From: a bacterium
GTDB taxonomy: Bacteria > DYJV01 > JALVYZ01
Assembly (NCBI GenBank): GCA_027037705.1
Contig: JALVYZ010000059.1
Span: forward strand, 8,143-15,562
Direction: 5' to 3'
Length of the DNA: 7,420 nucleotides
Of this stretch, positions 1 through 5,798 are shown piece after piece (within the stretch, counting starts at the first letter, position 1; the number at the start of each line of letters is the position of its first letter). The translations under genes were made by a program, and so were the position numbers. The notes under the pieces are model-generated. The model saw only the letters and a list, made by a program, of their open reading frames with translations. It searched no databases and was not told the origin of the DNA.

Positions 1-1069
1 AATTAGAAATTGCAACATTTTTATTCAGGTTTTTATTTGTTAAGTGATGATTTCCAATGATTTCTTTATGGACATCAGGCAAATTCCATTTTTCAGCTAT
101 TAATTCTCCTACTTCTTGATGATTAAGATAAAAATAACCTTTTTCAATTTCAATTAGTGTGAATTTAGAATCAAAATTTTTAAAAAATTGCAAATTTTTA
201 TCTTTTGCCAAATTTCCTATAATTAATTTTCCAATATCATGAAGAAGACCACCAATAAAAATCTCCTCCTGAATTTTTGTATCATAATCTAAATATTTTG
301 AGATCTCTTTTGAAAAACAAGCTGTAAAGTAACTATGTTTCCATAATTCATTTTTTTTATAATTATATGCAGGTAAACTTACATTTAACAATTTTGATGC
401 ATAAGCACTATAAACAACACTTTTTAATGTATCAAGACCCATATATGCAACGCTTTCTGAAATAGTTGAAATTTTTCTGCTTAAAGAAAAAAATGGAGAG
501 TTGATTATTTTTAAAACTTTTGCAGTAATTACCTGATCTTTTTTTATTACTTCTTCAAAATCTGATGCATTACTCTTCTTATTATTAATAAGCCTTTCAA
601 TTTCACTAATAATAGCAGGGAAGGGGGGTAATTGTTCAATTTTTCTATTAATTTCATTTATGATTTTATTCTTTTTTAAAATATTAATATCTTTTACATT
701 ACTTTCTTCTAATCCTAAAATTTTCAAAATTCTTTTAAGTAAATCATTTTTATCAAATGGATAAATGAGAAAAGAGGAAATTCTATATTTTTTTGCTTTT
801 TGTAAAATATCTTTTGTTGGCTTTGTATGATAGGCAATTATTGGAGTTCTATAATCATTAACTACCTCTCTTACCCATTTGGTAAAATAAAAAGGTTGAA
901 AATTACCAAATACGGGATTTGTAATTATTAGATCAGGTTTTGATTTTTCATATTCTTTTTTTAATTTAGTAAAAGAATTAATAATTTCTACATCAAAGTT
1001 ATAGAAATCAAGGAAATTTTTTAAATCATTTGCAATTTTTTCATCTTTTTCTATAATTATAATTTTCAT
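1..1069 (-). CDS. Pseudo-receiver plus HDOD domain signalling protein (C-terminus cut by window edge)
   Basis: The minus-strand frame is open from an ATG at 1069-1067 to the window edge, giving 356 residues without a stop, so the C-terminus is missing. Residues 1-120 have the layout of a response-regulator receiver (hydrophobic first strand, KPDLIITNP at 44-52, LIYPF at 101-105). The phosphoacceptor Asp position is Asn51, the switch Thr/Ser position is His81, the conserved Lys position is Tyr103, and the acidic pair is Glu7-Lys8. I therefore call it a degenerate receiver. Residues about 138-345 form an HDOD domain: LPPFPAI (147-153), a KIINSPFFSLSRKIS-type stretch (187-201), LHDIGK (276-281), NHQEVG (316-321) and GNHH (339-342). 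The HD-type metal ligands (H245, H277, D278, H317, H341/H342) look retained, although HDOD domains are generally regarded as non-catalytic regulatory modules. The start lies 4 nt after the VWA stop with only a weak Shine-Dalgarno, suggesting translational coupling. Its partner and signal are unknown. Confidence 0.88.
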   Translation of the reverse strand, partial: MKIIIIEKDEKIANDLKNFLDFYNFDVEIINSFTKLKKEYEKSKPDLIITNPVFGNFQPFYFTKWVREVVNDYRTPIIAYHTKPTKDILQKAKKYRISSFLIYPFDKNDLLKRILKILGLEESNVKDINILKKNKIINEINRKIEQLPPFPAIISEIERLINNKKSNASDFEEVIKKDQVITAKVLKIINSPFFSLSRKISTISESVAYMGLDTLKSVVYSAYASKLLNVSLPAYNYKKNELWKHSYFTACFSKEISKYLDYDTKIQEEIFIGGLLHDIGKLIIGNLAKDKNLQFFKNFDSKFTLIEIEKGYFYLNHQEVGELIAEKWNLPDVHKEIIGNHHLTNKNLNKNVAISN

Positions 1070-1073
1070 CTAT

Positions 1074-1934
1074 CTAAACTAAATCTTTTATATTCTCCGC
1101 AGAAACATCATTTAATTTCATATACTTTCCATCCATTAACCTTGCAAGCTCCCAGGAATATCCAAAAGCAAGATGGTCAGTTTCAGTATCTAAAATTATT
1201 GTTTTTATGCCTAATTTTTTTATGTATATACCAAAAATTTCAGCTTGGTCAAGGCAATTTTTATCTTCATATGGGACATTACCTCTGCCATCTGATACTA
1301 AAAACATTATAAAATTGCCATCTGGATTTTTTATTTTTTCCTGTTTTAAAACTTTATACGCTAATGCAAGACCGTGCGCCAATGGTGTTTTGCCACCAGT
1401 TGGCAGATTATCAAGTTTTTTCTTTGCAATATGGACACTATTAGTAAATGGTAAAATCAATTTAGCATCATTCACCCTAAAAGAAATTAATCCAACTTTA
1501 TCTCTTTTTTGATAAGCATCAATTAGTAAAGAATAAATTAAAGATTTTACTTTTATCATCTGCTGTTTTACTCCCATAGATCCACTTGAATCTACAACAA
1601 AGAGAATAGTTGAACCTTGTAAGTTCTCCCTTAAATTTTCTTTTATATGTTCAGGTTTAACTTTAAAATTTATTCCTGTTTGAATTGCTGCTGTTTTGAT
1701 TGTTGGAATAATAGCAATATCAGATGTTTTTTGAAAAGGAGTTTTATAACCAATTACTTTTCCTTTTTTCTCTTTTAATATAGCAGTGGTTCTTTTTCCA
1801 GACTTAAAATTACTCTTCTTTTTGGACTTGTAAGTAATATTTTTTATTTTGAAAGGTTCACCTGTTTCAAAAACTTTAAACTTTACTTCTACTTCTTCAT
1901 CTATTTCACTTGACTTTGATTTTTGTTTTTTTTT
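1074..1934 (-). CDS. chlD: VWA half of a ChlD-type metal chelatase, in the -1 frame relative to the AAA+ half
   Basis: This frame is open from just after an in-frame stop (1937-1935) to the TAG at 1076-1074, and holds no credible start. The only early ATG (1577-1575) falls inside the metal-binding site, so the segment is probably read by frameshifting from the upstream AAA+ frame. The joined protein would have 645 residues, close to my recollection of ChlD-type subunits. In joined numbering, residues 363 to about 465 are a charged, Lys/Glu-rich linker with a SGKRTTAI stretch typical of ChlD. A von Willebrand A domain follows with an intact MIDAS: DSSGS at 474-478, Thr542 in [11 protein letters not shown], and Asp574 in VSDGRGN. 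In the family this subunit assembles with ATP-driven ChlI-type rings and helps the large subunit (ChlH or CobN) insert Mg or Co into a tetrapyrrole. No large subunit is encoded here. If no frameshifting occurs, this half is dead; the intact MIDAS argues it is still under selection. Confidence 0.85.
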
Positions 1935-3010
1935 TCACTAAATATTAAATCTGAATCTATCTCTTTTTCTAATTTAGTTTCTTTTTCTTTAACCTTTTTT
2001 ATTGCTCTTTCTATAACATCTGTTTCAACTTCCAATTCATCAAATGGATTTTTTCTCATTCTATGTGGAAGAGCAATTTTAGCAGCTATTCTTATATGAT
2101 TTTCAGAAACATTTTTATCTCCATAATATGCTGCTAAAGCCTTAGCAGTTTTTTCCATAACAATGTCTGCTCTATGACCATCAACATTCATATCTATGGA
2201 GATTTGAGCAATCATTGTTAATATTTCATCGTTGACTTTGACCTTTTTCAAGTTCTTTTTTGCCTTTACAATCATTTGTGAAAGTTTTTTATCAAATTTT
2301 TGCCATTTTTTTATGAATTTTTCTGGATTTTTTTCAAATTCTTCTCTTCTTTTTATAATTTCAATTCTTTTAGACACACTCTTAATACCCTCAATTTCAA
2401 CACATAATCCAAATCTATCAAGAAGTTGTGGTCTGAGGTCACCTTCTTCTGGATTCATTGTCCCTATTAAAACAAAATTACTTGGATGAGAAATGGAGAT
2501 TCCCTCTCTTTCAATGTAATTTTTACCCATAGCAGCAGCATCTAAAATTGTATCAATTATATGATCGCTTAAAAGATTAACTTCATCAATATAAAGAATC
2601 CCTCTGTTAACTTCTGCCAATATACCAGGTTCAAAACTTTTTATTCCTTCTTTTAAAACTTTTTCAATATCAATTGTTCCAATAACTCTATCTTCAGTTG
2701 CTCCTATCGGCAAATTTACAACTTTAATTTTTCTATATTCATATTCAATATCTTTTTTATGTTTCAATTTTTCAACACATTCTTCACATAAATTGTTAAC
2801 ATCATCTGGATCGCAATTAAATCTGCATCCTTTAACAACTTTTATTTCAGGTAATAAATTTGCAAGAGACCTTACTGCTGTCGATTTTGCAGTTCCTTTT
2901 TCCCCTCTAATTAAAACTCCTCCAATTGATGGGTCAATTATATTTAAAATTAATGCTAATTTCATTAAATCCTGGCCAACAATAGCAGAAAAAGGGTATA
3001 TATAATTCAT
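1901..3010 (-). CDS. chlI: AAA+ ATPase subunit of a Mg/Co chelatase (ChlI-like), 369 aa without frameshifting
   Basis: This is a MoxR/ChlI-clade AAA+ ATPase. It shows Walker A GEKGTAKS at residues 36-43, Walker B ILYIDEVN at 138-145, sensor-1 Asn186 in [18 protein letters not shown], and a sensor-2 GHRAD at 278-282. A Cys cluster (C62, C66, C75, C78) around NCDPDD sits between Walker A and B and may bind a metal. The start ATG (3010-3008) has an AGAGG ribosome site 8 nt upstream and overlaps the aroC stop as ATGA, so translation is probably coupled to aroC. The frame stops at 1903-1901, a few residues after a run of ten A. At 369 residues the short product matches a ChlI small subunit. The same gene read with a -1 shift gives the ChlD-type product that also carries the VWA domain. 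The chelated metal cannot be read from the sequence. Cobalt for cobalamin is my preferred inference, since no chlorophyll genes are in view. Confidence 0.9.
1925..1936 (-). other. Candidate -1 frameshift site: A10 run with slippery heptamer A AAA AAC
   Basis: In mRNA sense the zero-frame codons here are GAA AAA AAA AAC, with ten consecutive A at 1935-1926. The heptamer A AAA AAC occupies 1931-1925, and A AAA AAA occupies 1934-1928; both fit the X XXY YYZ rule. Slipping back one base moves the ribosome from the ChlI-like frame (which ends at 1901) into the VWA frame. A run of ten A could equally cause slippage by RNA polymerase, with one extra A giving the same frame change. I see no well-placed Shine-Dalgarno-like stimulator: the nearest, AAAGAGA, is about 25 nt upstream. 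I also see no strong stem directly downstream. A homopolymer error or a real mutation cannot be excluded. Confidence 0.65.
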
Positions 3011-5585: not shown

Positions 5586-5634
5586 GTATATTTAAAATTA
5601 TCAAAAAGATTTGCTTGATATGAAAAAGAGAAAA

Positions 5635-5709
5635 CGGGGACGATGGGATTTGAACCCACGGCCTCTGGCGTGACAGGCCAGCGCTATAACCTGGCTTAGC
5701 TACGCCCCC
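5635..5709 (-). tRNA. tRNA-Asp (anticodon GUC)
   Basis: The 75-nt cloverleaf folds completely. The acceptor GGGGGCG pairs with CGTCCCC (one G-U), the D stem is GCTA/TAGC, and the anticodon stem CTGGC/GCCAG encloses loop CTGTCAC with anticodon GTC. The T arm is GTGGG/CCCAT with loop TTCAAAT. The discriminator base is G73, as expected for aspartate. CCA is not encoded; the next bases are TTTT, so the end must be added by a CCA-adding enzyme. It lies 16 nt downstream of tRNA-Val. Confidence 0.97.
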
Positions 5710-5725
5710 GAATTTATACATAATA

Positions 5726-5798
5726 TAGGCGGAACAGGGATCGAACCTGTGACCCCCGGCTTGTAAGGCCGGTGCTCTCCCAGCTGAGCTATCCGCCC
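5726..5798 (-). tRNA. tRNA-Val (anticodon UAC)
   Basis: This is a 73-nt cloverleaf. The acceptor GGGCGGA pairs with TCCGCCT, with a G1-U72 wobble at the tip. The D stem is GCTC/GAGC, the anticodon stem CCGGC/GCCGG encloses loop CTTACAA with anticodon TAC, and the T arm is ACAGG/CCTGT with TTCGATC. The discriminator is A73, as usual for valine. CCA is not encoded. It starts 20 nt after the HU stop codon, with no promoter or terminator recognisable between them, so it is probably processed from an HU-tRNA transcript. Confidence 0.97.

Follow-up and report, generated by a model that had tools for sequence, protein, structure and literature searches.

The window analysed here is a 7,420-nucleotide stretch of a draft bacterial genome (G000:C59:8143-15562; 2.05 Mb, 496 contigs, 92.8% completeness), the minus strand of which carries a chlD gene that is spread over two reading frames (3010 to 1074). 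The start of chlD shares an ATGA overlap (3007-3010) with the end of the upstream aroC gene (chorismate synthase, 4056-3007), suggesting that chlD probably lies within the aroC transcript. Directly downstream, on the same strand, is a gene for a response regulator-HDOD protein (2-1069), followed beyond the window by one for a GAF-SpoIIE phosphatase. A promoter scan gave signal no higher than the shuffle level, and Rfam matches within the window were limited to two tRNAs (tRNA-Asp and tRNA-Val, 5634-5798, minus strand), located between an HU gene and an acyl-CoA synthetase-like gene. A run of N inside the HDOD gene near the window start (L073, about 7991-9211) points to probable scaffolding or masking of the contig at this place.

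The zero frame of chlD (1901-3010, minus strand) encodes a 369-amino acid, ChlI-like AAA+ half, recognized by motifs and profiles, which would be the unshifted product. Its Walker A (GEKGTAKST), Walker B and Arg-finger (RPQLLDRFG) motifs are all intact; Walker motifs were also considered as a mark of frameshifted genes, and rejected because they are intact in most ChlD proteins as well and so are not diagnostic. The continuation in the -1 frame (1074-1934) encodes a Lys-rich linker and a VWA domain with the MIDAS motif DSSGSMG. The N and C halves match positions 1-349 and 372-640, respectively, of the 641-position profile TIGR02442, while the N half scores 450 bits against TIGR02030, slightly below the cut-off of 467. 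Solved relatives are ChlI (8osf) for the N half and the 60 kDa (D) subunit of magnesium chelatase (2x31) for the C half, and the folds of both halves are clear from sequence.

At the frame break, the zero frame reads ...TTT AGT GAA AAA AAA AAC AAA AAT CAA AGT CAA GTG AAA TAG, and includes a run of ten A residues (A10, 1926-1935), the longest run in the window, an in-frame slippery heptamer (A_AAA_AAC, 1925-1931) and the TAG that ends the short product (1901-1903), 22 nt past the run. Upstream, the -1 frame is closed by a TGA (1935-1937) directly before the run; from 1934 it stays open as far as 1074. Its earliest ATG, GTG or TTG, at 1577, opens an ORF of only 167 amino acids that begins inside the VWA domain, past the MIDAS motif. 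A shift into this frame at the run would yield a product of 645 amino acids (361 + 1 + 283). An earlier note on this DNA had described a stop shortly after the A run, a VWA half in the -1 frame with no usable start, the codons GAA AAA AAA AAC with their heptamer, and ChlI-like and ChlD-like products of 369 and 645 amino acids; the ORFs and the two TIGR02442 halves agree with this description throughout.

Conservation of the frame break

A comparison set of 386 genomes was searched for chlD, of which 48 gave a match, including the single other genome of the phylum that was compared (G001; same order, different family; 2.5 Mb, 98% complete), one contig of which is DYJV01000088.1. A scan of genome contigs matched only the record of G001 and one archaeal locus. 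Alignment of orthologues, a check put forward in the earlier note, revealed the same A10 run and both frames in G001, where the zero frame at the break is TCT GAA AAA AAA AAG TAG: the run has the same length and place, the in-frame heptamer is A_AAA_AAG and the break is again -1, although the base after the run (G), the zero-frame stop and the Ser codons before the run all differ from those of G000. The VWA half of G001 is intact. Amino acid identity between the two genomes is 71% in the N half and 60% in the C half, and differences in the C half fall at the three codon positions in the proportions 0.32/0.22/0.54; the excess of third-position changes points to purifying selection on the VWA half, not to relaxed selection.

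Homopolymers are prone to error, and the window comes from a draft in 496 contigs, yet we give almost no credence to the view that the break is an assembly or sequencing error or a sign of gene decay. Separate assemblies from two families share the same A10 run and the same -1 break, the C half is constrained and its MIDAS motif intact, and two genomes from outside the phylum (G139 and G276, below) break at the same place.

Reinitiation after the zero-frame stop, with the VWA half started separately and no frameshift needed, would fit the close overlap of the two frames, which resembles that of translationally coupled genes. It is nevertheless extremely unlikely, as the first -1 frame start in G000 lies beyond the MIDAS motif, that of G001 is a GTG at a different place (before the VWA domain), and a TGA directly before the run closes the -1 frame in both genomes.

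Besides these two, three of the 48 genomes with a match (G139, G276 and G332) carry the halves in separate frames and have an A run where they break. G139 and G276 belong to one family outside the phylum; the break reads GAA AAA AAA AAT (A10) in the former and GAA AAA AAA AGT (A9, again a -1 break) in the latter. In a tree of the AAA+ half, these two group with G000 and G001 (support 95/86) while G332 is placed elsewhere, indicating that at least two changes are needed. The split chlD of G332 (L060) arose separately and has no more than seven A residues (A7) at its break (CTA AAA AAA GCT TAG). Many other genomes with a match have an ordinary in-frame ChlD, often together with a separate ChlI. 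One of these in-frame genes (L042, G147:C43; a 657-amino acid ORF, no separate ChlI seen) carries A8 in its linker near codon 358 (GAA AAA AAA GAC), where a -1 slip would lead to a stop after 7 codons and a ChlI-size protein, a mirror image of the G000 case.

A10 tracts are generally hypermutable, and the run might in principle be a phase-variation switch in the DNA, with replication slippage between A10 and A11 toggling the long product within the population. This too is very unlikely, since A10 in both phylum genomes and A9 or A10 in their clade relatives, always in the same -1 relation, is not what random slippage would keep. The sequence GA10B occurs three times in G000 and four times in G001, one copy in each being the chlD frame break. 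Shuffling synonymous codons in 29.7 kb of coding sequence, with the result scaled up to a genome assumed to be 1.8 Mb, would give about 45; such runs are thus avoided, though not at chlD.

Probable frameshifting and its mode

No second match of ChlI size was found in G000 or G001, nor was CobS. A separate chlI could be missing from G000 because the draft is 92.8% complete, but the 98% complete G001 is also without one. Absence of a separate small subunit is enriched in, and not required of, the frameshifted chlD (fs-chlD) family.

We consider it highly probable that the two frames are joined by recoding of some kind, making this an fs-chlD gene with ChlI-like and ChlD-like products. Translation without a slip would produce the 369-amino acid AAA+ ATPase, while a fraction of events would slip back one base on A10, at A_AAA_AAC, so that the AAA+ and VWA halves become one ChlD-like protein of 645 amino acids. 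A single gene would then supply both partners of an AAA+/VWA complex in a ratio set by the slip frequency, and with both partners coming from chlD alone a separate chlI would not be needed. The earlier proposal of one gene encoding two proteins by a -1 slip on A10 is well supported by the break in G001, the constraint on the VWA half and the lack of a separate ChlI or CobS, which that note had suggested looking for. The two frames, the run, the conservation of both and the lack of a further small subunit can be read directly from the sequence searched; that slipping takes place in the organism itself, chiefly on the ribosome, and that its two products work as partners is what we infer.

Poly-A -1 frameshifting in ‘magnesium chelatase’ chlD genes was predicted and then shown in E. 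coli reporters, in which chelatase sites gave a -1 shift of 10% at A7, 40% at A9 and 63% at A11 (Antonov 2013, NAR, PMC3711429); an A10 run would fall between the last two values if it behaves alike. Known chlD frameshift signals usually have a downstream structure (PMC9227772), a usual and not a defining feature. No stable stimulatory RNA structure was found downstream of the G000 site (z between about +0.6 and +0.9 over 61-91 nt, and -0.86 and +0.07 over 121 nt), and inspection by eye found no Shine-Dalgarno-like element 8-14 nt upstream of it.

This result, together with the length of the run, leaves room within recoding for a different mechanism, in which RNA polymerase slips on A10 and the two products are translated from different mRNAs (with A11, or A8). 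Such transcriptional slippage is a possibility of some weight, though not our preferred one: A10 is at or above the length, often 9, at which it is evident in bacteria (PMC1088944), Thermus dnaX slips in this way on A9, and the length of ten is kept in G000 and G001 even though ribosomes can make do with shorter A-rich heptamers. In G000 and G001 alike, the run is phased so as to form a ribosomal heptamer (A_AAA_AAC and A_AAA_AAG, respectively), which favours a ribosomal slip, as does the separately arising G332 case with only A7, but neither point is decisive.

Large subunit, B12 genes and gene neighbours

The earlier note treated the gene as a case of cobalt chelatase and suggested a search for cobN. 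A CobN-family gene is indeed present, with one such protein in each of G000 and G001 and no CobN match in G139 or G276, but its features fit poorly with that role. By sequence and hydropathy, the N terminus is signal-like (MKRILFHVFFLCFLINLSA in G000; MKKVIFFLTIVTIFLFT in G001), and a membrane helix lies at the C terminus of the G001 protein; in G000 the contig ends within the gene. The CobN loci (L072, G000:C199; L082, G001:C104) have TonB receptor, MotA/ExbB and DUF2162 neighbours in both genomes, and that of G000 additionally contains a DUF2149 gene and a periplasmic-binding/CbiZ fusion. The export signal, the anchor in G001 and the TonB/ExbB neighbours suggest that CobN should face the periplasm. 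The ChlI/ChlD halves lack an export signal of this kind and should be cytoplasmic, so that the membrane would separate them from the expected large subunit.

The best solved match of the CobN-family protein is the heme de-chelatase HmuS (501 bits, vs. 388 for CobN), and the protein carries a CobN-type D-D-F-F-Q-Y-A-G-G stretch. HmuS, encoded in the hmu operon of Bacteroidota (PDB 9d26), is predicted to be anchored through a helix at either terminus and does not need ATP (PMC12583661). Our protein resembles it in its terminal membrane helices (G001), its TonB receptor and ExbB neighbours and, in G000, DUF2149. Identification as HmuS, considered on the basis of these neighbours and the best solved match, was rejected: the methionine-rich insertion is absent, and Asp and Tyr replace His-1209 and His-254, respectively. 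By these sequence criteria, the protein fits neither an ordinary cytoplasmic CobN nor a genuine HmuS.

G000 and G001 both encode CbiC, CbiD, CbiE/T, CbiF, CbiG and CbiH, in a search that covered markers of the anaerobic type. In the anaerobic B12 pathway, to which this set belongs, cobalt is inserted early. Of the two genomes, only G001 yielded a short CbiX/CfbA-like chelatase. The order chlD, response regulator-HDOD, GAF-SpoIIE phosphatase is kept in two families (window 2-1069 and upstream in C59; L074, 2835-5752); in G001 this downstream order is visible, while the aroC side of chlD lies beyond the contig end.

It is accordingly unlikely that the AAA+ and VWA halves work with CobN of the same genome as a conventional B12 cobaltochelatase. 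Such a reading would account for the CobN-family gene in both genomes, for the second active-site position of that protein, which is CobN-type rather than HmuS-type, and for the name of TIGR02442 (putative cobaltochelatase), and the CbiX-like chelatase of G001 was not found in G000. Against it stand the N-terminal export signal in both genomes and the C-terminal anchor in G001, the TonB receptor, ExbB and DUF2162 genes beside CobN, the anaerobic, early-cobalt type of the B12 genes found and the distance of these genes from chlD. The exported CobN, the anaerobic gene set and the signalling neighbours of chlD together argue against an aerobic cobaltochelatase role, and the sequences lend no support to a B12 cobaltochelatase whose CobN is cytoplasmic. 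More tentatively, the ChlI/ChlD pair may not be a chelatase at all: it could form a free-standing AAA+/VWA module working with the adjacent HDOD regulator and SpoIIE phosphatase, in which the slip would fix the ratio of motor to adaptor.

Relation to known systems

The G000 gene resembles known fs-chlD genes (Antonov 2013, PMC3711429; Antonov 2020, MBE, as described in PMC9227772; Kuznetsov 2022, PMC9227772) in having AAA+ and VWA halves in adjacent frames with a -1 shift on poly-A, in the lack of a separate small subunit among the sequences found, and in products of ChlI and ChlD size. It differs from them in its poorly sampled phylum, the lack of an evident RNA structure, the predicted export of CobN and the anaerobic B12 genes. 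Nested products sharing an AAA+ half through a slip on an A run are also known from dnaX (ribosomal, at A_AAA_AAG, in E. coli; transcriptional, on A9, in Thermus), but there the slip leads to the short product, in contrast to chlD of G000, where it would lead to the long one. As in the CobN-ChlI-ChlD and CobNST cobaltochelatases, homologous AAA+ and VWA subunits occur in a genome with a CobN-family protein; unlike in those systems, CobN is predicted to be exported and anchored, the pathway genes found are anaerobic and no B12 genes lie by chlD. G139 and G276, having no CobN match, resemble the ‘stage 1’ genomes of Kuznetsov et al. (2022, PMC9227772).

The kind of gene is thus already known and tested in E. 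coli reporters; what is new is the phylum, the conserved genome pair and a large subunit predicted to lie across the membrane. A 2016 review warned that the name ‘magnesium chelatase’ may misstate the function (PMC5009743), and Kuznetsov et al. (2022, PMC9227772) left open what ChlI and ChlD do without ChlH or CobN. The present case extends a validated recoding family to another phylum, where its conservation is well supported, and sharpens that question by adding two related genomes that have the frameshifted gene but no evident large subunit in the cytoplasm. The HDOD and SpoIIE neighbours of chlD, being conserved, provide a new lead to the role of ChlI and ChlD.
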